Positions 27,111 through 36,872 of a stretch of DNA of 42,559 bases are shown one piece after another. The translations under genes and the position numbers were made by a program. The notes under the pieces were generated by a model. The model saw nothing but the letters and a program-made list of their open reading frames with translations, had not been told where the DNA came from and made no database searches. The stretch is from Phycisphaeraceae bacterium. Lineage in GTDB: Bacteria; Planctomycetota; Phycisphaerae; Phycisphaerales; Phycisphaeraceae. Numbering within the stretch: position 1 is the first letter of the stretch; each line of letters begins with the position of its first letter. Location of the stretch: positions 1 to 42,559 of the forward strand of contig JAHQVV010000205.1 of assembly GCA_019634195.1 (NCBI GenBank), in the 5' to 3' direction.

Positions 27111-28202
27111 TCAACGCTTCGCGAACCGGTAGTGCGACACGCCCCATTCCTTGCCGTCGGCGTAGCCCCACAGCTCCGCGCAGGCCATGTAGAAGATCCG
27201 CCAGCGTTGCAGCCAGATTTTTGCGTTCGCCTTGCCGTAGGTCTGCTCGAACAGCGGGAGGATCGTGTGGCGGTTCGCGTCGGTGTTCTGTAGCCAGGCC
27301 TCGGCGGTCTTCTGGTAGTGCGTGCCGTCTTGGACCCAGTCGGCCTCGCATTGGAGGTGCTCATCGAAGCCGGGCAGGTAATCGTGCGCCGGCATGATCC
27401 CACCGGCGAAGAAGTGCCGGCCCATCCAGTTGCTCTGGCCGTCCTCTTCGAACAAATACGTGAACCGCCGGTGCGTGAAGATGTGCACGAACAGCTTGCC
27501 CTCATCTTTCAGCCAGCCCGAGACGCGGCGCATCAGCTCGCGGTGGTTGGCCATGTGCTCGAACATCTCGATCGAGCAGACACGGTCGAACCGCTGATCG
27601 ATGTCGAAGTCGTTGATGTCGGCGGTGATGAGGTTGATATTCGTCAGGCCCCACCCGGCTGCGCGGCCCAAAATGAACGCGCGTTGGGATGCGGAGTTAC
27701 TTACCGCGGTGATCGAGCTGTTGGGATACTGCTCCGCCATCCAAAGCGTCAGCGAACCCCACCCGTAGCCGAGTTCGAGGATGTCCATCCCGTCGACGAG
27801 TTCGGCACGTTCACAGACCAATGCTAGCGCCGCGTCTTCCGCCTGATCCAGCGACGTGACGCCCTCGGCCCAGGTGCAGCCTGAATACTTCAGCCTGTGG
27901 CCCAGACAATGCTCATAAAAACCAGCGGGTACCTCGTAGTGCTGACGATTCGCATCCTGCGTCCTCACCGCAATCGGGCCTTGCGATAAAGAATCGCGTA
28001 GCTGTTCGGTTCGCTGTGCACTCGCCTCGTCCCCGCCGCGTGCTTCTTCTTGCAGCCGGTGGCTAAGTAAGCGACGGATCCCCATGCGGATCAGCAAATC
28101 GGGCACCCAGCCCTTCTCCGCCAACCCCATCACCCCAGCCTCACGATCCGTATCACGCGGCTGATGCTCCGGGCGTGATGTTTCAGTAGTAGTTTGTGTC
28201 AT
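27111..28202 (-). CDS. CFA-family SAM-dependent methyltransferase (EMFEHM type)
   Basis: 363-aa relative of cyclopropane fatty acid synthase, acting on acyl chains of membrane lipids from the cytoplasmic side. SAM-binding motif LELGYGWGS (about residues 145-153 of the folded part), then SIEMFEHMANHRELMRR in place of the CFA synthase EMFEHVG, and FVHIFTHRRFTYLFEEDGQSNWMGRHFF...GGIMPAHDYL, which characterises a group of non-cyclopropane methyltransferases. The first about 60 residues are an extra, poorly ordered stretch. Start at 28202 because upstream in-frame codons lie in a perfect inverted repeat. Last gene of the lipid operon: preceded by the DUF1295 gene, with repeat family D between them. 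The product could be a methylated fatty acid. Confidence 0.85.
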   Translation of the reverse strand: MTQTTTETSRPEHQPRDTDREAGVMGLAEKGWVPDLLIRMGIRRLLSHRLQEEARGGDEASAQRTEQLRDSLSQGPIAVRTQDANRQHYEVPAGFYEHCLGHRLKYSGCTWAEGVTSLDQAEDAALALVCERAELVDGMDILELGYGWGSLTLWMAEQYPNSSITAVSNSASQRAFILGRAAGWGLTNINLITADINDFDIDQRFDRVCSIEMFEHMANHRELMRRVSGWLKDEGKLFVHIFTHRRFTYLFEEDGQSNWMGRHFFAGGIMPAHDYLPGFDEHLQCEADWVQDGTHYQKTAEAWLQNTDANRHTILPLFEQTYGKANAKIWLQRWRIFYMACAELWGYADGKEWGVSHYRFAKR

Positions 28203-28210
28203 GGTGTTTG

Positions 28211-28396
28211 GTTTTAACCACAGAGCACTCAGAGGGCCACAGAGTAAAGCAAGCAAAGAGGACACGTTAGTCGTGTGCAGGCTCAATAGCGACGTTATTC
28301 ATTTGGGCTTGTGGATGAAATTTCATAACTCGTGCTGTTCTTACCGAAACTAGTCTGCCTTGCTCTGTGGCCCTCTGAGTGCTCTGTGGTTAAAAC
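28211..28396. repeat. Palindromic repeat, family D: perfect 34-bp inverted repeat
   Basis: Arms 28211-28244 and 28363-28396 are perfect reverse complements over 34 nt (beginning GTTTTAACCACAGAGCAC), separated by 118 nt. The left arm lies 9 nt upstream of the methyltransferase start and the right arm contains the stop codon of the DUF1295 gene (28390-28392). It therefore forms the whole junction of two genes in the operon, where it could act as an attenuator or RNA-stability element. Confidence 0.9.
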
Positions 28397-29184
28397 CGAT
28401 TCTTTTTGACGAACCAAGGCACAAACGCGCTCGTCTCGCGTTGGTACTGCCTGTACGCCTCGCCCTTGCTCTGCACGGCGCGCATCTCGGTGTAGGGGAT
28501 GCCGGTCACAAACACCAGGAACACCAGCATGAGGACCGGCCCGGCGAGCGCGGCGTAACCGATCGATGTCGCTAGCGTTGCACCGATCGCTAAGTACGCG
28601 AACCAGTGCAGCCACTCGAAAAAATAGTTCGGGTGCCGCGAGTACCGCCAGAGACCTTCTTTACAGACCTTGCCTTGATTGTCGGGGTTGGCTTTGAATT
28701 GTGCGAGCTGCTTATCAGCGATGATTTCGCCACCGATCGCGATCAACCAGATCACGATACCTGTTGGCATGCGCCAGTCAGAAGGACCGGCTGCCGTGAT
28801 TGCCGCAATCATCGGCGCGAGAAATAACACAACAAAGACTGCTTGCATCTGAAAGAAAACAAAAAAAGCGAGTGGTGCCTTGTCCCCGAAATACGTACGC
28901 ATGTGCGCGTAGCGCCCGTCTTCTTCATTGCCGTTCAGACGCTTGAAAAGGTGCCAGGCCAGGCGCAGCGCCCACACCGAACCCATCAGACCGACCCAGA
29001 CGCGACGCTGGAATTGGCCCTCAAGCATGGCCCCCGCGACGATCACGCCGACGCCGATCAAAAACGCCCATGCGACATCGACGTACCCCGCGTTGCTGAT
29101 CTTGTGGCAGACGAACCACACCACGGCGAACGCGACCGCCGCGGCGCCCCACGCCCACGCCAGCCACAGCCAGGGCTCGCTCAC
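28390..29184 (-). CDS. DUF1295 / steroid 5-alpha-reductase-like membrane protein
   Basis: 264-aa integral membrane protein of the DUF1295 family, related to 3-oxo-5-alpha-steroid 4-dehydrogenase and isoprenylcysteine methyltransferase folds. About six transmembrane segments; the conserved C-terminal motif GLWRYSRHPNYFFEWLHW and the final IPYTEMRAVQSKGEAYRQYQRETSAFVPW are diagnostic. Start is GTG at 29184, whose GTGA overlaps the TGA stop of the upstream methyltransferase, so the two are translationally coupled. Its stop codon lies in the right arm of repeat family D. DUF1295 proteins often accompany CFA-family methyltransferases and may reduce an unsaturated lipid product; the reaction is unproven. 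Confidence 0.93.
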   Translation of the reverse strand: MSEPWLWLAWAWGAAAVAFAVVWFVCHKISNAGYVDVAWAFLIGVGVIVAGAMLEGQFQRRVWVGLMGSVWALRLAWHLFKRLNGNEEDGRYAHMRTYFGDKAPLAFFVFFQMQAVFVVLFLAPMIAAITAAGPSDWRMPTGIVIWLIAIGGEIIADKQLAQFKANPDNQGKVCKEGLWRYSRHPNYFFEWLHWFAYLAIGATLATSIGYAALAGPVLMLVFLVFVTGIPYTEMRAVQSKGEAYRQYQRETSAFVPWFVKKNRF

Positions 29185-30482
29185 GGCGTTCCCCCCATCG
29201 GCTCGACCGGCTGAACGACAAGGGGCGCATCGGTGCAGCCCGGCTGACGGACCTCGATCTGCGCCAGGCCGATGTTGTGCTCGATGAACCCGCCCTCGCA
29301 GTAGGCGAGGTAGAAATCCCACAGCCTAAGCAGCTCGCGCGGGTAGCCCCGGGCCACCACGCGCTCACGGTTGTCGCTGAGGTTCTCCGCCCAGAGGCGG
29401 AGCGTCGCCGCGTAGTGCGGGCCGAGCTCTTCGAAGTGCGTCAGCTCCAGGCCGCTGCCGCGTGCCATCGCCTGCCGGAGGATGCCGATGGACGGGATGC
29501 ACGAGCCGGGGAAGACGTACTTCTTGATGAAATCAATACACTTGCGGGCCGACTCGTAGCGCCCGTCGGGGATCGTGATCGACTGGATCACGCCCCGGCC
29601 CGTCGGCTTGAGGAGCCGGGCACAGCTCTCAAAGAACTGCCCATAAAACTGGTGCCCCACCGCCTCGATCATTTCCACACTGACCAGCTTGTCGTACTGG
29701 CCGTCCAGCTCGCGGTAGTCGCGCTTGAGCAGCGTGACACGGTCGCCCAGGTTGTTCTCGGCGATCAGCCTCCTTGCGTGGTCGTGCTGCTGCCGGCTGA
29801 GTGTCGTCGTTGTGACCCGGCAGCCGGTGCGCTGCGCGGCACGCACCGCGAGCGCGCCCCAGCCCGTGCCGATCTCCAGGAGGTGCTGGCCCTGGTCGAG
29901 CCCGAGCTTATCGATCAGCCGATCCAGCTTGGCGACCTGGGCATCGATGAGTGACGCCTCGGGCGACTCGAACACCGCGCAGCTGTACGTCAGCGTCGGG
30001 TCCAGCAGCAGCTCAAAGAAATCATTACCCAGGTCGTAGTGGGCCGCGATGTTGCCCCGGCTGCCCGACAGCGTGTTGCGCTTGAGGTAGTAGCCGATCT
30101 TGAGCAGGGCCCCGCCGAGGCGGACCGAGACCTTGTCCATCCGGTCGGACAGCGAGAGGTTACGGGCGAAGATGCGGACCAGCCCGGTCAGGTCGTCGCA
30201 GTCCCACAGGCCGTGGATGTAGCCCTCCGCGGCGCCGAGGTGCCCGCCAAGGACCGCGTCACGGTAGAAGCGCGGGTGCTGGACGGTGATGGTGCAGCGC
30301 GGGTCGGCGTCGCGGTTCGCCTGGCCAAAGGCCAGGCGTTGGCCGCGGTCCAGCACGGTCAATTGCGCGTCCTGGATGCGCTCCAGTTGGCTGAGCAATA
30401 GCCTTCGGCAGGCGCGGTCGGTCAGGCCGGGCCGGTCGGCGGCGGGGAGGTCACGGGGGGCGGGGATGATGGAACTGGACAT
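29181..30482 (-). CDS. CFA-synthase-family methyltransferase (EMIEAVG type)
   Basis: 433-aa member of the cyclopropane-fatty-acid-synthase family, which methylates or cyclopropanates double bonds of phospholipid acyl chains with SAM. N-terminal domain with HYDLGNDFFELLLDPTLTYSCAVF, SAM motif LLEIGTGWGALAVRAAQ, DYRELDGQYDKLVSVEMIEAVGHQFY and QSITIPDGRYESARKCIDFIKKYVFPG. The motif EMIEAVG replaces the EMFEHVG of true CFA synthases, in which the His helps bind bicarbonate; proteins with this change include the methylases of the furan/methyl fatty acid type (UfaM-like). Start at 30482 is chosen to open the folded domain; 30530 is also possible. 147 nt separate it from the DUF1365 gene before it. 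Confidence 0.9.
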   Translation of the reverse strand: MSSSIIPAPRDLPAADRPGLTDRACRRLLLSQLERIQDAQLTVLDRGQRLAFGQANRDADPRCTITVQHPRFYRDAVLGGHLGAAEGYIHGLWDCDDLTGLVRIFARNLSLSDRMDKVSVRLGGALLKIGYYLKRNTLSGSRGNIAAHYDLGNDFFELLLDPTLTYSCAVFESPEASLIDAQVAKLDRLIDKLGLDQGQHLLEIGTGWGALAVRAAQRTGCRVTTTTLSRQQHDHARRLIAENNLGDRVTLLKRDYRELDGQYDKLVSVEMIEAVGHQFYGQFFESCARLLKPTGRGVIQSITIPDGRYESARKCIDFIKKYVFPGSCIPSIGILRQAMARGSGLELTHFEELGPHYAATLRLWAENLSDNRERVVARGYPRELLRLWDFYLAYCEGGFIEHNIGLAQIEVRQPGCTDAPLVVQPVEPMGGTP

Positions 30483-30629
30483 GGTTTTGCGGTGTTGAGC
30501 TGTCACAAAGGATAGGCGCAGCGGCGCCATAAATCACAACCGTCATTTCGTTCACGCGCCGGTTTTGGATTCAACCCGCTCAAAACAAATAGGAGAGCAG
30601 GTCCCAATCGCCCCCGCCTCGCGGCGGGG

Positions 30630-31412
30630 CTATTGGCGATGCTCATCCGACCACTTGGGGTGCGTCACGAAGGGCACACGCTTGAGCCAGAGCAGCAGGG
30701 CGTTCCAATAGATCGCGGCGACGACTTTGACCGTGATCAGCGGGTGCTTGAGCAGCATCAGGTTCAGCCGGGCCGAGGTGATGGGCTTTGCCGTCATGCT
30801 CAGCGAGGCGTCGAAAACCCGCCGGCCGTGGTCCAGGTTCTTCATGCTGACGATCAGCGGGTCACCCGGGCCGCTTGCGGGGGCGTTGAAGCGCCAATCG
30901 TAGTCGTGGTCCATCGGGAGAAAGGGGGAGACGTGGAAACGTTTTGCGAGTTGGAAGCGGTGGGACTTCTTGTCTCGGTGTTCTTGCTCAATCGGCAAGA
31001 CATAGACGTGTCGCTCGCCCCAAGGCGTGTTGTGGATCTCAACCGCGATGGCGGCGAGGTGCCCGTCCTTGTTGTAGCAATAGAAGAACGTCGCGGGGTT
31101 CATCACGTAGCCGAAGGTCCGCAGGTGCGCGAGCATCACGACCCGGCCGGTCGGACGTCGGCCGGCCTCTTCCTCGACGCGATCGAGCACGGCTTCTTTG
31201 ATGGACTTCCGGGGGCCGCCGAAATGGTCCTTGCGCAGCAGGCAAGCAATATTCCATCGGCCAACCGACCACAGCAGCCGGCCCGGCCCTTTGAAAACCG
31301 TGTCCAACTCATCAAGGTCCAGCGCAAGCATAAACAGGCGATAGCGCAGGGCGTGAGCCTTGGGCTGGTAGCGGCGGTGGCGAACAACGCCTTCATAGAT
31401 CGCTGATCGCAT
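30630..31412 (-). CDS. DUF1365 protein, lipid-cluster component
   Basis: 260-aa protein of the DUF1365 family. The N-terminus MRSAIYEGVVRHRRYQPKAHALRYRLFMLALDLDEL is the conserved opening; later NPATFFYCYNKDGHLAAIAVEIHNTPWGERHVYVL and KRFHVSPFLPMDHDYDWRF are conserved blocks. DUF1365 genes sit next to CFA-family methyltransferases and FAD oxidoreductases in many bacteria (LitR-linked and ChrR-linked clusters), so the protein probably takes part in lipid modification, by an unknown reaction. Its start lies only 20 nt from the divergent start of the glycosidase-like gene. Confidence 0.93.
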   Translation of the reverse strand: MRSAIYEGVVRHRRYQPKAHALRYRLFMLALDLDELDTVFKGPGRLLWSVGRWNIACLLRKDHFGGPRKSIKEAVLDRVEEEAGRRPTGRVVMLAHLRTFGYVMNPATFFYCYNKDGHLAAIAVEIHNTPWGERHVYVLPIEQEHRDKKSHRFQLAKRFHVSPFLPMDHDYDWRFNAPASGPGDPLIVSMKNLDHGRRVFDASLSMTAKPITSARLNLMLLKHPLITVKVVAAIYWNALLLWLKRVPFVTHPKWSDEHRQ

Positions 31413-31432
31413 CGCTAGAGTATAGTTCGCTC

Positions 31433-32689
31433 ATGATGCGGCCTATCGTGCTCGTTCTTATATGCCTGCCTGTCTACGCTCAACACGCCCTTGCCGATGA
31501 CATGGCTTGGCACGATATACCCCTTCAATCAGAGATCGCGCGTGTCCAACCCATGACCGGCGTGGTCCTGTGGTCGAGTTCGCCTCATGTCGATACACAG
31601 GCGGTACAACTTGAATTCGCCTATCTCAAATACGACCAGGTCATCAACGCCAAGGGCAAGTACGACTGGACCGCCGTGGACAGCCTGCTGAAAGCCGCGG
31701 CAAAGCGCAAGCACCAGATGGTCATCCGCTTCTGGTTCACCTACCCCGACAAACAGACCGCCGTGCCGGCCTACATCAAATCACTTCCCGATTACCAGGA
31801 AACATTCGCTAAGGGCGATGGCAAGCCGACCTGGTACCCCGACTGGTCACACGATCAACTGCAACAATTCACACTGGATTTCTACAGCGCCTTCGCCAAG
31901 CGTTACGACCAGGACCCCCGGCTGGCCTTCTTGCAGACAGGCTTTGGCCTTTGGGCGGAGTACCACTGCTTCGGCGGGCCCTTGAAACCCGGGCAAACAT
32001 TCCCTTCCAAGGCGTTCCAAAAAACGTTTTACAAGCACATGAATCGCTGCTTCAAGCAGACACCCTGGATGATGTCTGTCAATTGCATTGATACCAGGCA
32101 GTCCCCCGTAGGCGATGAGCCAGAGCTGATCAAGATCGGCTTCGGCCTGTTCGATGACTCGCTGCTGTGTAAAGAGCACGACCGTGTGAACGCGATGAAT
32201 TGGAAGAAGCTGGGCGGCAAGGAACACGCCAAGCTCGGGCCGCACGGCGGCGAGTTTTCTTACTACAACCAAAACGACCAGCAGTATGCACTAGCGAAGA
32301 ACGGGCCCAATGGCACCAGCATCGAGCAGATGGTGGGACAATATGGGGTTTCGTTTGTCATCGGTAATGATCAGCCACGCTATCAAAAGATGGCGCGTAT
32401 CGAGCAAGCGGGCCTGGCGATGGGGTATCGTTTCAAGATCACCCGTTATCAAACGAATCATCAGGTCGTCAGGCTGCGCATCAAAAATGTCGGTGTTGCA
32501 CCGATCTATTATGAAGCCTTCCCCGCACTCGGTGAAACGCAAAGCCAAACATCTCTTAAAGGACTCATGCCCGGTAAGGAAAGAGACTTCACCATCCCCG
32601 CGCGGCCCGGGCACCAAACATCGCTGAGCATCCAATGCGACCGGCTTGTACCCGGACAAACGATCGCGTACGAAGCGAATTTAGAGTGA
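31433..32689 (+). CDS. Secreted TIM-barrel (DUF4832 / beta-galactosidase-like) protein
   Basis: 418-aa secreted protein: signal peptide at residues 1-22 (ending ALADD), then a barrel with features of family 42-like or DUF4832 proteins (LEFAYLKYDQVINAKGKYDWTAVDSLLKAAAKRKHQMVIRFWFTYP; LAFLQTGFGLWAEYH), and a C-terminal beta-sandwich (VVRLRIKNVGVAPIYYEAFPAL) as in DUF4832. A conserved Glu in WAEYH is a candidate catalytic residue. It is on the opposite strand inside the lipid operon, with 20 nt at its 5' end and 7 nt at its 3' end, and its composition looks less GC-rich than the neighbours. The start could also be ATG 31436. Probably an unrelated insertion; glycosidase activity is unproven. Confidence 0.78.
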   Translation: MMRPIVLVLICLPVYAQHALADDMAWHDIPLQSEIARVQPMTGVVLWSSSPHVDTQAVQLEFAYLKYDQVINAKGKYDWTAVDSLLKAAAKRKHQMVIRFWFTYPDKQTAVPAYIKSLPDYQETFAKGDGKPTWYPDWSHDQLQQFTLDFYSAFAKRYDQDPRLAFLQTGFGLWAEYHCFGGPLKPGQTFPSKAFQKTFYKHMNRCFKQTPWMMSVNCIDTRQSPVGDEPELIKIGFGLFDDSLLCKEHDRVNAMNWKKLGGKEHAKLGPHGGEFSYYNQNDQQYALAKNGPNGTSIEQMVGQYGVSFVIGNDQPRYQKMARIEQAGLAMGYRFKITRYQTNHQVVRLRIKNVGVAPIYYEAFPALGETQSQTSLKGLMPGKERDFTIPARPGHQTSLSIQCDRLVPGQTIAYEANLE

Positions 32690-32696
32690 TCCCTTG

Positions 32697-34016
32697 CTAA
32701 AGGGACACGCCGAACGGCTTCACCGCGTTCAGCGCGCTGACAACGCCGTCTTCGTGGAAGCCGAACCGCCAGTATGCGCCGCAGAAGCCCGTGCGGTTGT
32801 GGTGGTTGATCTTGTCGAACAGGTCGTGCGCGGCCTTGCGCTGCGGCAGGAACACCGGGTGCTCGTACGGCACCTTCGCGATGACCTTCTCCGGATCGAT
32901 CGCCGCCTCGTCGTTGAGCGTCACATTGATGGTTTGATCGGTGTCCAGGCCTTGCAAGATGTTCATGTTGTAGGTGAGGACCACGGGCTTGTTATTGGAT
33001 TTCGGGAGGGCGAGGCTCCTGCCGAGCCGCGAAACACTCGTCGCTTGCGGCTCGGCAGGAGCCTCGCCCTCCCATGGGATTCGGTAATTCCACGCCGCCC
33101 AGCAGGCCCGCCGGCTGGGCAGCACGTTCTCATCGGTGTGGAGGATCGCGAGGTTCGGCTGGTACGGGATCGACCCTAGCGCGGCACGCTCGTCGTCCGT
33201 CGCGCCCTCCCCGAGGATCGCCAGGGCCTGATCGCTGTGGCAGCCGAGCAAGACATGGTCAAACCGCTGGCCCGGCTCACGCTCTGTATCGAGTTCGACG
33301 CGGTCATCGAAGCGGCGCACCGCGGTGACCGCTTCGTTCAGGCGGATGCGGTCGGCGAAAGGCCTGGTCAGCTCGGCCATGTAGCTGCGCGACCCGCCGA
33401 CGACGGTGCGCCACTGCGGCCGGTCCCAGACATTAAGCATGCCGTGGTTGCGGAAGAACTGCGCTATAAAGCGCATCGGGAACTGCGCGACCTCCCGCGG
33501 GTCGGCCGACCAGATCGACGCCGCGATGGGGATGAGGTACTTGTCGTAGAACATCTCGCCCAAGCCGTGCTGCCGGGCGAAGCCTTCCATCACCGTCTGG
33601 TCGTCGCCCTGCTCGGCGAACCGCTTGGCGAGCTTGTTGAACTTGAGGATGTCCCGGAGCATGCCGAGGAATTGTGGGCTGACCAGGTTGCGTTTCTGCG
33701 CGAACAGCCCGGTGATCGACCCGCCGTTGTACTCCAAGCCGGTCTGATCGCAGGCGACGGAAAAGGTCATCGTCGAGGCGCGCGACGGCACGCCAAGCCG
33801 ATCGATCAGCTTGATGAAGTTGGGGTAGGTCCAGTCGTTGAAGACGATGAAACCGGTGTCCACGGCGTACGTCTGGCCGCCCAGCTCAACATCGAGCGTG
33901 TTGGTGTGCCCGCCGACATAGCCGGCCTTATCGAAGACGGTGATGTCGTGGTGGGGCTGGAGCAGGTACGCCGCGGTCATCGCGCTGACGCCGGTGCCGA
34001 CGATGGCGATGCGCAT
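32697..34016 (-). CDS. FAD-dependent oxidoreductase (amine-oxidase fold), lipid cluster
   Basis: 439-aa flavoprotein with Rossmann FAD motif IVGTGVSAMTAAYLL at residues 5-19 and the second motif DKAGYVGGHTNTLDVE. The family (NAD(P)-binding amine oxidase-like) is typical next to DUF1365 and CFA-family genes and includes fatty-acyl desaturase-type flavoproteins of furan fatty acid synthesis, so oxidation or desaturation of a methylated acyl chain is plausible. Residues about 315-338 (WEGEAPAEPQATSVSRLGRSLALP) are encoded by a perfect palindrome (33004-33073) inserted in frame between conserved RIP and VVLTYNMNILQGL. Whether the enzyme tolerates it is unknown. Start 34016 lies 3 nt after the desaturase stop. 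Confidence 0.9.
   Translation of the reverse strand: MRIAIVGTGVSAMTAAYLLQPHHDITVFDKAGYVGGHTNTLDVELGGQTYAVDTGFIVFNDWTYPNFIKLIDRLGVPSRASTMTFSVACDQTGLEYNGGSITGLFAQKRNLVSPQFLGMLRDILKFNKLAKRFAEQGDDQTVMEGFARQHGLGEMFYDKYLIPIAASIWSADPREVAQFPMRFIAQFFRNHGMLNVWDRPQWRTVVGGSRSYMAELTRPFADRIRLNEAVTAVRRFDDRVELDTEREPGQRFDHVLLGCHSDQALAILGEGATDDERAALGSIPYQPNLAILHTDENVLPSRRACWAAWNYRIPWEGEAPAEPQATSVSRLGRSLALPKSNNKPVVLTYNMNILQGLDTDQTINVTLNDEAAIDPEKVIAKVPYEHPVFLPQRKAAHDLFDKINHHNRTGFCGAYWRFGFHEDGVVSALNAVKPFGVSL
33004..33073. repeat. Palindromic repeat, family C, inside a coding gene
   Basis: Perfect 27-bp inverted repeat (33004-33030 with 33047-33073) around a 16-nt loop. Core words GGCTCCTGCCGAGCC and GCTCGGCAGGAGCC. 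It lies in frame within the FAD oxidoreductase gene and translates as EGEAPAEP...RLGRSLALP, a peptide seen in predicted proteins of many planctomycetes. Most likely a recently inserted MITE/REP-like element. Confidence 0.93.
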
Positions 34017-34019
34017 GGG

Positions 34020-35138
34020 TCAGGCCGTCCCGGTGGCTTTTCGCCCGAGCTTGCCCGCTGTTTCGCCGAGCTTGTCTTTCGCGTCATTGGCTTTCTTGCC
34101 AAGCTTGCTGGCGGCGCTGCTCTTCTTGCGCGGGGCGGCTGCGCCCTCGGCACGCGAGGCGGCGAGCTGTTCGTCCGAGCTCAACGCACCCTGGTCATTG
34201 CGGTTGGCCATCAGCTTCTTCTCGGGTACGCCACGCAGGTCCCAGATCAGCCCGGTCCACGACATGGCCCTGAGCGTGTAGTAGGTGATGTCGATCTCGT
34301 ACCAGTAGAAGCCCTGCTTCACGGAGGACTGGTAGTGGTGGTGGTTGTTGTGCCAGCCCTCGCCGAGGGTCAACAGCGCCAGCCAGAAGTTGTTGCGCGA
34401 GTCGTCGCCGGTCTTGTAGCGCTGGCTGCCGAACTTGTGGCTCAGCGAGTTGATCGTGTACGTGCCGTGGTAGGTCAGGACGGTGGACAAGAAGAAGCAC
34501 CAGACGAAGATCTGCCAGCCGGACGTGTTCAAGCCAAAGGCTTGCAGCGCGACGCCCAGGCCGAACATCGCCGCGCCAAAGGCGACGTAGACGATGATGT
34601 CGAAACGGTTGAGGAACCGCAGCTCGGGGTACTTGGCCAGGTCGTGGACGGCCTTTTGATTGGTGCCGAAGGCGGCCTCGGTCGTGAACCAGAACATGTG
34701 CGACCAGACCATGCCGCGCTGCTTGGGCGAGTGCAGGTCCGGGTGCTCGTCCGAGTGGCGGTGGTGGTGGCGGTGGTGCGCCGCCCACCACAACGGGCCG
34801 CGCTGCATCGCGGTCAGGCCCCAGACCGCCATGACGAACTGGAAGGCCCGGCTGGTCTTAAAGGTCTTGTGCGAGAAATACCGGTGGTAGAACCCGGTAA
34901 TCGCGAACATGCGCCCGAAGTAGAACGCGATGCAGAGCGCCAGGGCAATCCACGAGAAGCCGACGACGAACACGAACAGGCACGCGGCATGCATCGCGAA
35001 GTACGGCAGGTTGCGGACCCATTCGACCTTCTTCGGGCCGGGCAGCTCGATCTCCTTGACCGCGGCTTCGCCATCGAAGAATTGTCCGATCGCGCGTCCG
35101 ATGGCCCGGAGGGGAGCAAACCGTGGTTTTGCAGGCAT
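34020..35138 (-). CDS. Membrane fatty acyl-CoA/lipid desaturase (delta-9 type)
   Basis: 372-aa integral membrane diiron desaturase. The three His boxes are intact: HRYFSH at residues 85-90, HHRHHH at 121-126 and HNNHH at 263-267. Four hydrophobic segments (about 52-75, 76-84, 183-205, 208-228) fit the family. The last about 60 residues are Lys/Ala-rich. It introduces a double bond into acyl chains, which could provide the substrate for the methyltransferases in the cluster. Start at ATG 35138 has AAGGA 8 nt upstream; a TATAAT lies 26-31 nt upstream. The FAD oxidoreductase begins 3 nt after its stop. Confidence 0.95.
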   Translation of the reverse strand: MPAKPRFAPLRAIGRAIGQFFDGEAAVKEIELPGPKKVEWVRNLPYFAMHAACLFVFVVGFSWIALALCIAFYFGRMFAITGFYHRYFSHKTFKTSRAFQFVMAVWGLTAMQRGPLWWAAHHRHHHRHSDEHPDLHSPKQRGMVWSHMFWFTTEAAFGTNQKAVHDLAKYPELRFLNRFDIIVYVAFGAAMFGLGVALQAFGLNTSGWQIFVWCFFLSTVLTYHGTYTINSLSHKFGSQRYKTGDDSRNNFWLALLTLGEGWHNNHHHYQSSVKQGFYWYEIDITYYTLRAMSWTGLIWDLRGVPEKKLMANRNDQGALSSDEQLAASRAEGAAAPRKKSSAASKLGKKANDAKDKLGETAGKLGRKATGTA

Positions 35139-35163
35139 ATCAATTCCTTAGGAGGGCGAGCGT

Positions 35164-35169
35164 ATTATA
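35164..35169 (-). promoter_or_regulatory. Candidate -10 element of the desaturase promoter
   Basis: TATAAT on the minus strand, 26-31 nt upstream of the desaturase ATG. The -35 region at the right distance (around 35187-35192, CGCGCA on the minus strand) does not resemble TTGACA, so it may depend on an activator or another sigma factor, or be relieved by the regulator encoded upstream. No regulator operator was identified here. Confidence 0.35.
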
Positions 35170-35267
35170 GCTCGACAATCTAGGAGTGCGCGGTCCACTG
35201 AATGGCCTTCATGTGGCCCTGGGCCGTATTTTGCCAAACTCAAATGAGACAAATACCGCGCCAAGGC

Positions 35268-36197
35268 TCAGGCCTGCTGCTCGGTCCCGCTGTGGGAACT
35301 CGTCGCCGACGCATTGGCGGGGTGCATCGCCTTTTGTGCCGCGAGCAGGCCCTTGCTGAAGGACTGCAGCTCGGCCATCGACCGGGCGGTGTGCAGGTTG
35401 TCCAGGCCCAGCCGGAGGATCGCGTCGTTGAGCTGCCGGCCGCCGACGATGATCTGGCAGGATTCTGCCGCCAACTCGTCGGCCAACTCATGCAGCTTCT
35501 TGGCGTAGTCCGCGTTGGGCTCGGCGGTCATCGAGACCCAGACCAGCGAGGCCTGTTCCTGCTTGGCCACGCTAAACAACTGATCCCAGGGCGTATTCGC
35601 GCCCAGGTTCATCTCACGCCAGCCCTGCTCGGCCAGCACCAGCGAAACACACAGCGACGAGATCAGGTGCATATCCCCGGCCGGGGCACCGCCGATCGCC
35701 ACCGGCGCGTTTGGCGCAGCGGGCCTGATCAGCGAATGCATGTAGCCCAGCGTGCGGATACAGATGTCCGTCGCCCGGTGCTCGATGCCAACGCCATCCG
35801 GGTTTCCGTGCCAGAGCTCACCGATCTGGTTCATCGACTCGCGGATCGGCCCGTCGATGATCTCGCTGATCGCGTGGCCGTCCAGGTACAGCCGGGTGAC
35901 CGCGGCAACGAACTCCTTGTCCCGCCCATTGGTCAGCAGGTCGTAAAAATGCTCGGAGAGCTGGGTATTGCCCGCCCGGCCGGTCTCGTCGTCTGCCGCG
36001 GTCAGGCCCAGCACCGAAGGGTCCTTCACGGTGTAGCCGCGCAGCCTCACAAAGCGGATCGCCTCGGCCAGTTCAACGCGCCGGTGCCCGCCAGTGGTGC
36101 GAATCACATCAATCAGGCCATCATCGATCCAGCGTTTGAGCGAAGACTCGCTGACGCCGATCGCTTGGCCAAGCTGTTTGGGGGAGAGGTATTTCAA
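35268..36197 (-). CDS. CarH/LitR-type cobalamin photoreceptor regulator (MerR-B12)
   Basis: 309-aa repressor with a MerR-type winged helix (residues 1-54; SPKQLGQAIGVSESSLKRWIDDGLIDVIRTTGGHRRVEL) followed by a helical domain and a cobalamin-binding domain. Residues matching those of the light sensor CarH (T. thermophilus W131, H132, E141, H142, H177) are all here: W129-H130, E139-H140 in WHGNPDGVGIEH, and H177 in GDMHLIS as lower axial ligand. The B12 motif reads DMHLIS instead of DxHxxG. CarH binds adenosylcobalamin as a tetramer on DNA and is dissociated by light; H132 forms bis-His ligation after photolysis. The gene lies upstream of the desaturase, divergent from a SRPBCC gene. Light control is inferred from these residues. 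Confidence 0.92.
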   Translation of the reverse strand: MKYLSPKQLGQAIGVSESSLKRWIDDGLIDVIRTTGGHRRVELAEAIRFVRLRGYTVKDPSVLGLTAADDETGRAGNTQLSEHFYDLLTNGRDKEFVAAVTRLYLDGHAISEIIDGPIRESMNQIGELWHGNPDGVGIEHRATDICIRTLGYMHSLIRPAAPNAPVAIGGAPAGDMHLISSLCVSLVLAEQGWREMNLGANTPWDQLFSVAKQEQASLVWVSMTAEPNADYAKKLHELADELAAESCQIIVGGRQLNDAILRLGLDNLHTARSMAELQSFSKGLLAAQKAMHPANASATSSHSGTEQQA

Positions 36198-36362
36198 GGC
36201 TTCAGATCCGGGGACTTCAACTTATTAATCGTCCAATCCGTTCATTATAATCAACCAATTCTGCCTGGAAAGGCTTTTTTTGCATATTATTCATTCATAT
36301 CGGCTTATGCAAATCTGAAAAACAACCGTTTTACCCCGTTTCCCGCAATTGACAGGCCCTTT
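36198..36362. promoter_or_regulatory. AT-rich divergent promoter region with inverted repeat
   Basis: The 165-nt gap is clearly more AT-rich than its surroundings. TATAAT occurs at 36246-36251 (readable on both strands as ATTATAAT). TTGCATA (36280-36286) pairs with TATGCAA (36306-36312) as a 7-bp inverted repeat spaced by 19 nt, a candidate operator. GCCT-GGAA-AGGC followed by seven T (36263-36281) resembles a short terminator in the leader. Confidence 0.4.
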
Positions 36363-36872
36363 ATGATGAATCAACCCAGTGTCGAGCGTGTCGGAAAAAT
36401 CTGGCGGCTGACCATGAGCCAGTGGCTCAACCAGCCCCGCGAGGAGCTCTTCGCCTTCTTCGCCGACGCGACCAACCTCGAAAAGATCACCCCCGACCTC
36501 TTGAATTTCCGGGTCGTCACGCCCGGGCCCATCTCGATGGCGCCCGGCACCCTCATCGACTACAAGCTCAAGGTCCGGGGCGTCCCCATCCGCTGGCGCA
36601 CCCTCATCGAGACCTGGGAGCCCTACGCGAAGTTCACCGACGAGCAGCTCAAGGGGCCTTACAAGCGCTGGCACCACACCCACACCTTCACCGAGGAGAA
36701 CGGCGGGACCCGCTGCAACGACCTGGTCGAGTACGCCCCGCCCGGCGGCCCGCTCGCACCACTCATCAACAAGCTCGTCGTGCAGCGCGATGTCGAAAAG
36801 ATCTTCGCCTACCGCGCGAAGGTCCTGGCAGAGATGTTCGGGGGTGAGCAGGGGCAATCGACCAACCCGTGA
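36363..36872 (+). CDS. SRPBCC-family (START/cyclase-like) lipid-binding protein
   Basis: 169-aa soluble protein of the SRPBCC superfamily with a hydrophobic ligand pocket: opening VGKIWRLTMSQWLNQPREELFAFFADATNLEKITPDLLNF, then GTLIDYKLKVRGVPIRWRTLIETWEPYAKFTDEQLKGPYKRW, which is typical of the coenzyme Q-binding/cyclase branch found beside LitR-type regulators and lipid clusters. Start ATG 36363 is followed by a second ATG (36366) in frame; a TTGACA just upstream at 36349-36354 is probably coincidental. Divergent from the CarH-type regulator and likely controlled from the shared region. It may bind a lipid intermediate; no enzyme activity can be claimed. Confidence 0.86.
   Translation: MMNQPSVERVGKIWRLTMSQWLNQPREELFAFFADATNLEKITPDLLNFRVVTPGPISMAPGTLIDYKLKVRGVPIRWRTLIETWEPYAKFTDEQLKGPYKRWHHTHTFTEENGGTRCNDLVEYAPPGGPLAPLINKLVVQRDVEKIFAYRAKVLAEMFGGEQGQSTNP

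Follow-up and report, generated by a model that had tools for sequence, protein, structure and literature searches.

Gene content and layout of the locus

The window analysed here is a 42,559-nucleotide stretch of DNA from a Phycisphaeraceae bacterium (assembly GCA_019634195.1, contig JAHQVV010000205.1, positions 1 to 42,559, forward strand). Between 27111 and 36872 it carries a set of lipid genes next to the gene of a cobalamin-binding regulator, here called REG, and together they may form a light-controlled operon for furan fatty acids. Pfam confirmed all the genes that the original prediction, made from the letters of the window, had named there: two CMAS genes, DUF1295, DUF1365, a flavin adenine dinucleotide (FAD) oxidoreductase, a desaturase, a B12 regulator and a SRPBCC gene. 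The features are as follows.

27111..28202 (reading frame open to 28286, start uncertain), minus strand: MT1, CMAS/coclaurine-N-methyltransferase-like S-adenosylmethionine methyltransferase, FufM-like candidate (Pfam CMAS, 2.3e-32)
28390..29184, minus strand: DUF1295 membrane protein with a steroid-5-alpha-reductase-like fold, putative NADPH ene-reductase (Pfam DUF1295, 4.3e-67; Steroid_dh, 5.6e-9)
29181..30530, minus strand: CFA-family methyltransferase, predicted UfaM-type, in which Gln takes the place of E. coli H266 (Pfam CMAS, 2.8e-84)
30630..31412, minus strand: DUF1365, UfaO family (Pfam DUF1365, 2.3e-78)
31433..32689, plus strand: DUF4832-like gene, 418 aa (weak Pfam DUF4832 match, 23.3 bits against a cut-off of 29.2)
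32697..34016, minus strand: FAD oxidoreductase of the amine-oxidase type, UfaD-like (Pfam Amino_oxidase, 1.7e-17; NAD_binding_8, 2e-12)
33006..33071, no strand given: palindrome resembling a repetitive extragenic palindrome (REP), in frame inside the FAD gene, about 24 extra residues
34020..35138, minus strand: DES, membrane fatty acid desaturase (Pfam FA_desaturase, 2.8e-19; His boxes in the translation)
35164..35174, minus strand: CGAGCTATAAT, promoter -10-like element 5' of DES (identical in genomes G000, G002 and G004 by alignment)
35268..36197, minus strand: REG, CtMerR-like regulator with a helix-turn-helix (HTH) and a cobalamin-binding domain (Pfam, phmmer, motif check)
about 36363..36872, plus strand: SRPBCC gene, divergent from REG (Pfam Polyketide_cyc, 1e-8; possible ATG starts at 36363, 36366 and 36414)

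Downward from REG, the order on the minus strand is REG, DES, FAD, DUF1365, CFA, DUF1295 and MT1, and the GTG start of DUF1295 overlaps the CFA stop. The single minus-strand block of the original prediction did not hold, as the plus-strand DUF4832-like gene lies between DUF1365 and FAD and begins 20 bp from the DUF1365 start. The SRPBCC gene beside REG diverges from the block as foreseen, and it stays adjacent to REG in the same-genus genomes G002 and G004. Among five genomes of the window's genus, both REG and the operon desaturase were present in G000, G002 and G004. REG and DES are 129 bp apart, and this gap contains the promoter-like element. Alignment of the REG-DES and REG-SRPBCC intergenic regions revealed CGAGCTATAAT as common to the three sequences compared and no convincing operator in them. 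A promoter scan returned 3 sites, shuffled sequence giving 2.4 on average, and CGAGCTATAAT was not among the sites listed.

REG is a strong candidate cobalamin photoreceptor

A phmmer search against solved structures identified CtMerR (8JBS) as the closest relative of REG (E 5e-24, alignment starting at residue 8), with CarH at about 1e-6. CtMerR is described as an adenosylcobalamin-binding, green-light-responsive protein with a divergent DNA-binding domain (PMC11796333). Pfam detected B12-binding (2.3e-10) and B12-binding_2 (7.3e-6) domains in REG, and a weak HTH (MerR, 23.2 bits, under the cut-off of 28.2). We rejected the assignment of REG as CarH proper, the NCBIfam equivalog NF052513 scoring 41.9 bits against a cut-off of 400. 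The LitR/CarH-type light regulator claimed beforehand thus survives as a sensor of the cobalamin light type with the full signature, and falls as CarH or LitR in the strict sense.

The light signature GxxW, EH, GxxH and GxxxP was experimentally derived and was checked with CtMerR among other proteins (PMC11796333). In REG it is complete (GELW, EH, GDMH and GANTP), and the residue after the Trp is His, as in TtCarH (H132) but not in CtMerR (Arg). REG therefore has in common with CtMerR and CarH (class I LitR) an HTH, a cobalamin-binding domain and all four motifs. It differs from them in its score under the CarH cut-off and in its linkage to lipid genes, the known ones being linked to carotenoid genes; in addition, most of the planctomycete relatives of REG that were examined have Tyr at the cobalt-ligand position. 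The window's genome also contains a cobalamin adenosyltransferase gene and a photolyase-family gene. These features make REG a strong candidate cobalamin photoreceptor and the sensor assignment strong for the window's genus; by its residues, light sensing is well predicted for the REG of the window, but not for all of its linked relatives.

A second point of comparison is the Pseudomonas class II LitR (PplR/PmlR) region, in which a MerR-type light-response regulator likewise lies beside ufaM and a FAD oxidoreductase gene (PMC9758184), and a class II LitR takes part in the light-inducible expression of genes including ufaM (PMC9758184). According to the accessible part of that source, however, class II LitRs have only a 4-helix bundle and are thought not to bind B12, PmlR2 works with a light-oxygen-voltage (LOV) protein, and no DUF1295/desaturase operon is named for the region.

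Cobalamin proteins are linked to the lipid genes across Planctomycetota

Of 392 genomes sampled from the phylum, 108 carry DUF1365. Five of these were already in the order set and one (G304, a contig-edge fragment) was left out, giving 103 loci in 102 genomes. A hidden Markov model scan detected a cobalamin-binding protein within about 9.5 kb of DUF1365 at 42 of the 103 loci, representing 23 of 67 genera and, at family level, 11 of 28, which bears out the claim that a regulator of the light-sensor type, its signature complete in the window, is physically tied to the lipid genes. Within the five genomes of the order set, that of the window was linked, and G003, G055, G061 and G076 had no cobalamin protein within 9.5 kb. 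In the first 80 of the 103, a PF02607 protein lay no more than 9 kb from DUF1365 in at least 22 genomes, a lower bound from the weaker, non-MetH-sized matches, where random placement would give about 0.65. The 86 strongest matches (76 genomes, mostly MetH-sized frames) served as an internal control; they shared a contig with DUF1365 in 9 cases, the closest at 51 kb.

The linked proteins were of several kinds: CtMerR-like, true MerR/CarH-like (L191, L229, L163 and L244), HTH_17-type (L216), and proteins of about 350 aa with no recognised DNA-binding domain (L184, L220, L181 and L206). The full light signature was seen in the roughly 350-aa cobalamin proteins near the lipid operon at L041 (8203-9270), L037 (18323-19393), L184, L220, L181 and L206. 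In a quick regulator tree, which leaves 33 of its 81 inner branches open and contains several long ones, REG fell inside a clade of 17 rows (Shimodaira-Hasegawa-like approximate likelihood ratio test, SH-aLRT, 91), 16 of them operon-linked, and another linked group, with 16 rows (SH-aLRT 94), stood elsewhere. At L239 and L241, 4-5 bases, counting the stop codon, separate the end of the regulator frame from the FAD match.

Outside the phylum sample, 80 named loci were fetched with MT1; they are the top 80 of at least 586 matches confirmed in a scan of named genomes. Three of them had a cobalamin-binding protein (L127, L136 and L142). Non-planctomycete linkage thus amounted to 2/75 (L136, a gammaproteobacterium, and L142, Marinimicrobium); L127 is one of the 5 loci titled Planctomycetota, and it is the same contig as L194, counted in both locus sets. 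At L136 (8198-9100), in a gammaproteobacterial metagenome-assembled genome (MAG), a CarH-like MerR-B12 regulator stands in line with FAD-DUF1365-CFA. At L127 (4374-5369), in a Planctomycetota MAG, the lipid operon is separated from a degenerate cobalamin regulator by a gene of the extracytoplasmic function (ECF) sigma type.

The cobalt-ligand position varies among linked regulators

We compared the signature residues of the regulators at the 42 linked loci. Trp, EH and the cobalt-ligating His were kept at 15, with all four motif elements at 11, and one locus had EQ with His kept. EH with Tyr in place of the axial His was found at 12, one of which also has no Trp in the alignment. The remaining 14 combined ER for EH with Tyr (L165, L167, L168, L170, L172, L175, L177, L178, L182, L183, L190, L194, L199 and L247); L199 holds a second regulator copy, with Asp. 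The ER-plus-Tyr regulators are a degenerate branch that may be blind to light. Because the window's genus sits inside a mainly Tyr clade, its His may have been regained.

REG relatives were also found in 34 of 101 close genomes, and 5 of these 34 also carry DUF1365 (itself present in 12 of the 101). Photolyase, FolE, fasciclin, SDR-DUF2867 or SOUL genes were in reach at 19 of the 34 regulator loci (L048-L081) versus 4 of the 61 operon loci that have no cobalamin protein, the latter being the comparison set in place of random DNA. Photolyase, DPRP or FolE genes alone gave 11/34 versus 0/61. Such neighbours of the unlinked REG relatives are what a light-response regulator would show. At L037 (12675-16381), SOUL, DPRP (photolyase-related) and SDR-DUF2867 genes adjoin the lipid operon, recalling the singlet-oxygen gene set of Chlamydomonas.

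The lipid gene set is widespread and variable in order

To the window's six families (DUF1295, MT1, desaturase, FAD, DUF1365 and CFA) we assigned the best match within each fetched stretch, many stretches being cut by contig ends; on this count, all six were present at 57 of 115 planctomycete loci and five at 40. FAD-DUF1365-CFA were consecutive among the six families at 111 of 116 planctomycete loci, and this grouping is more than chance. The window's six-gene order occurred at 20/116, the alternative order DUF1295-MT1-DES-FAD-DUF1365-CFA at another 20/116, and the window's order intact except for a missing desaturase at 19/116. One fixed order of the six genes was rejected, given two orders of equal frequency.

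The best 80 MT1 matches came from Xanthomonadales, Methylococcaceae, Bacteroidota, Verrucomicrobiota, Acidobacteria, Desulfobacterales and others. In reach of MT1 at these loci were DUF1295 (75), CFA (68), FAD (66), DUF1365 (65) and a desaturase (58; 45 at 35% identity or more and 13 weaker). Since loci fetched with MT1 from many phyla hold the other families, the gene set is widespread. A block unique to the window's lineage was accordingly rejected, and the novelty that the original prediction saw in a separate DUF1295 and a desaturase in one block was lost with it.

The block was also compared with the RpoE-ChrR singlet-oxygen regulon. A ChrR profile built from 5 sequences matched none of the 116 planctomycete loci, the window included; an ECF sigma profile matched 19/116, the window stretch among them. 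With ChrR at 0/116, there was no linked pair of ECF sigma and ChrR, and we rejected the window as an operon of this regulon. Among the 80 named loci, an ECF sigma gene was found at 27 and a ChrR match at 9, and the Stenotrophomonas copy adjoins an ECF sigma and a ChrR-cupin gene.

Residue and fold signatures of the enzymes

Mono- and dimethyl-furan acids are made by UfaM, UfaD, UfaO (DUF1365) and FufM, and RPA0923 was deleted both alone and together with fufM (RPA0924) (PMC7380195). Halomonas UfaM has been expressed in E. coli (PMC12089945). A plant (Arabidopsis) enzyme 37.87% identical to FufM has been placed in furan synthesis (PMC10940516). The window has in common with the Ufa/Fuf pathway of Rhodobacter sphaeroides and Rhodopseudomonas palustris (PMC7380195) a CFA-family methylase, a FAD oxidoreductase, DUF1365 and a second CFA-family methylase, a likeness drawn by gene family and not by direct sequence comparison. 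It differs in having a single block that includes a desaturase and DUF1295, and a cobalamin regulator instead of RpoE-ChrR. The UfaM/UfaD/UfaO families occur together in the window. The comparison with the Ufa genes was a reasonable one.

We then inspected the best CFA match of each of 182 loci. The position of E. coli H266 was Gln in 179/182 rows and a gap in the remaining 3, and the C139 position was Ser or Ala in 128/182 and Cys in the window. Both E. coli CFA and CmaA1 have His at the H266 position, a residue which we take to bind the catalytic bicarbonate in cyclopropane synthase. Three separate CFA genes of Stenotrophomonas and Achromobacter keep the His, in genomes that also hold a Gln-type copy; two more strong Achromobacter CMAS genes lay outside this comparison, and no other CMAS match above 33 bits was found in G000-G003. 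Against PRK11705 the operon CFA scored 245 bits, the cut-off being 400. With this score and Gln in place of the active-site His, its assignment as a cyclopropane synthase was rejected. Given the Gln, the operon CFA is probably a methyltransferase of the UfaM kind. The two CFA-family methyltransferases of the original prediction are both CMAS proteins by Pfam, but the one called CFA does not have the cyclopropane-synthase active-site His.

MT1 retains His at the H266 position, and its I268 position was Phe in 176/177 rows and a gap in the other. An MT1 profile of 10 relatives gave the coclaurine N-methyltransferase 6gkv as its best PDB match, at 343 bits versus 145 bits for E. coli CFA. The plant relative of FufM presumably belongs to the same coclaurine-N-methyltransferase-like family, and by its best score with that branch MT1 is a candidate FufM-like enzyme. 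The DUF1295 structure model (predicted local distance difference test, pLDDT, 95.3) matched SRD5A2 (7bw1; E 2.5e-3, probability 1.00) and a delta14-sterol reductase (4quv; E 9.7e-3) in Foldseek, both weak by E-value, with no match at or under 1e-3, and on this modelled fold DUF1295 is a putative NADPH C=C reductase. For the DUF1365 model (pLDDT 94), the best Foldseek match was a weak lipocalin-like one (3bdr, E 3.6e-3), again with none at or under 1e-3.

A proposed light-controlled furan fatty acid pathway

From the gene content, conservation, residue signatures and linkage observed, we infer the regulation, the chemical steps and the product as follows. Without light, an oligomer of REG carrying adenosylcobalamin would keep the desaturase promoter repressed, perhaps along with the SRPBCC promoter that diverges from it; breakage of the Co-C bond by green or blue light would free REG. 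The desaturase would then provide a cis-monoene, which the CFA-like enzyme, with its Gln for the cyclopropane-synthase His, would methylate as UfaM does. The FAD enzyme would form a conjugated diene (UfaD-like), DUF1365 would close the furan ring with O2 (UfaO-like), MT1 would put on a second methyl (FufM-like) and DUF1295 would carry out some reduction step. The resulting acyl chains, with a methylated furan ring, would act as scavengers of singlet oxygen. We give about an even chance to this reading of the locus, in which a B12 photoreceptor controls an operon that counters singlet oxygen with methylated furan fatty acids, perhaps of the dimethyl-furan kind; the furan assignment of the operon, made by gene family and residues, is moderate.

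Several observations weigh against it. In the window's genome the plus-strand gene cuts DUF1365 to MT1 off from the DES promoter, and two of the five same-genus genomes (G001 and G003) retain the lipid genes but have neither REG nor a desaturase at the locus. Across the phylum sample, 61 of 103 operon loci have no cobalamin protein in reach. At the 42 linked loci, Tyr replaces the cobalt-ligating His in 26, 14 of which also have no EH, and 27 fall short of the full signature core, in the axial His or in EH. The operon-linked regulator loci are not enriched for the light-related neighbours (4/42 for the wide gene set; 1/42 for photolyase/DPRP/FolE), and among the 33 readable relatives of L048-L081 (L079 gave no regulator row in the alignment) the axial position is Tyr in 24 and His with the full signature in 4. 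Finally, DUF1295-MT1 acts as a module separable from FAD-DUF1365-CFA.

This separability bears on a possible but rather improbable alternative, in which the same light and B12 control governs two products, namely mono-methyl furan acids (from CFA, FAD and DUF1365) and a saturated acid with a mid-chain methyl branch (from MT1 and DUF1295, by methyl transfer and then NADPH reduction). DUF1295 and MT1 lay on the same strand within 1.5 kb at 74/80 MT1-fetched loci, and 11/80, some of them short contigs, had no CFA, FAD or DUF1365 in reach. In planctomycetes the DUF1295-MT1 pair stands before or after FAD-DUF1365-CFA and is sometimes inverted. The fold of DUF1295, like that of 5-alpha- and sterol reductases, fits such a reduction, and the accessible part of the published furan-pathway description names no reductase (PMC7380195). 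The best score of MT1 argues the other way, as it falls with the coclaurine-N-methyltransferase-like branch, presumably that of the plant FufM relative. An analogy for MT1 with DUF1295 is tuberculostearic acid synthesis, which proceeds by methyl transfer and then reduction.

It is unlikely that REG answers B12 status or redox instead of light, or is no cobalamin sensor in vivo, with the lipid genes forming a general oxidative- or temperature-stress module. The many linked relatives without the axial His or EH would suit such a regulator, as would the tie of some operons in other phyla to ECF sigma/ChrR instead. CarA, a CarH relative and paralogue, is independent of B12 (PMC9304148). The REG of the window, however, retains every signature residue, and the unlinked relatives sit with photolyase/FolE genes, though most of them have Tyr. 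That REG controls only SRPBCC or itself, by a chance neighbourhood unrelated to the lipid genes, is very improbable: SRPBCC is in reach of REG relatives without lipid genes at 5/34 loci and the REG-DES gap has its own promoter-like element, but the linkage is phylum-wide, far above expectation, and involves several cobalamin-protein architectures.

Beyond the furan-operon reading of the window itself, we propose, tentatively and as less probable, that the CtMerR-like, true MerR/CarH-like and HTH_17-type proteins and those with no recognised DNA-binding domain were each recruited to the same furan-fatty-acid gene set across Planctomycetota. The large Tyr subfamily, partly with the adenosyl-contacting Trp and Glu-His, would be a new, possibly Tyr-ligated or ligand-switched sensor class from which the window's genus went back to His, and the dimethyl-furan lipid would be made via an extra reductase step outside the published scheme.

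Relation to known systems and meaning

In Chlamydomonas, singlet oxygen co-induces CFA1, CFA2, DUF1365, DUF1295 and SOUL genes in a SAK1-dependent manner (PMC4067076). This SAK1 regulon has CFA1, CFA2 (also labelled 'coclaurine N-methyltransferase'), DUF1365, DUF1295 and SOUL in common with the gene sets described here (PMC4067076), and differs in being eukaryotic, with separate genes and another regulator. Most subscription journals lay outside our literature search, in which no publication on a furan fatty acid in Planctomycetes was found (weak evidence), only PMC4067076 joined DUF1365, DUF1295 and cyclopropane, and only PMC11796333 joined most of the themes around CarH, cobalamin, tyrosine and Planctomycetes. 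Among the matches listed for CarH, B12 binding or light in Planctomycetes, a single one names Planctomycetes, and it does not mention CarH.

Three things are new here: cobalamin proteins paired with the lipid genes again and again across the phylum, a subfamily with Tyr at the cobalt-ligand position, and the Gln marker. The gene set itself is widespread. The pairing would tie B12-based light sensing to membrane-lipid chemistry across a phylum, where the CarH control described in the literature consulted concerns carotenoids. The His-to-Gln change offers a one-residue marker that may separate UfaM-type methylases from similar cyclopropane synthases. DUF1295, and MT1 as FufM-like, can be named as candidate pathway members in a gene set of many bacterial phyla. 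The His, Tyr and degenerate cobalt-ligand sites would provide a natural series for how cobalamin photoreceptors gain or lose their light response.

Minor features of the locus

The DUF4832-like gene was not found at the equivalent place in the same-genus genome G002, and it is probably not part of the pathway. In G004 (L047, 888-1916), a second desaturase-like gene lies beyond the FAD gene, where DUF1365 would be expected. The FAD genes of G001-G004 showed no palindromic insert like that of the window, and the REP-like family to which the insert belongs has 62 half-site matches in the window's genome.

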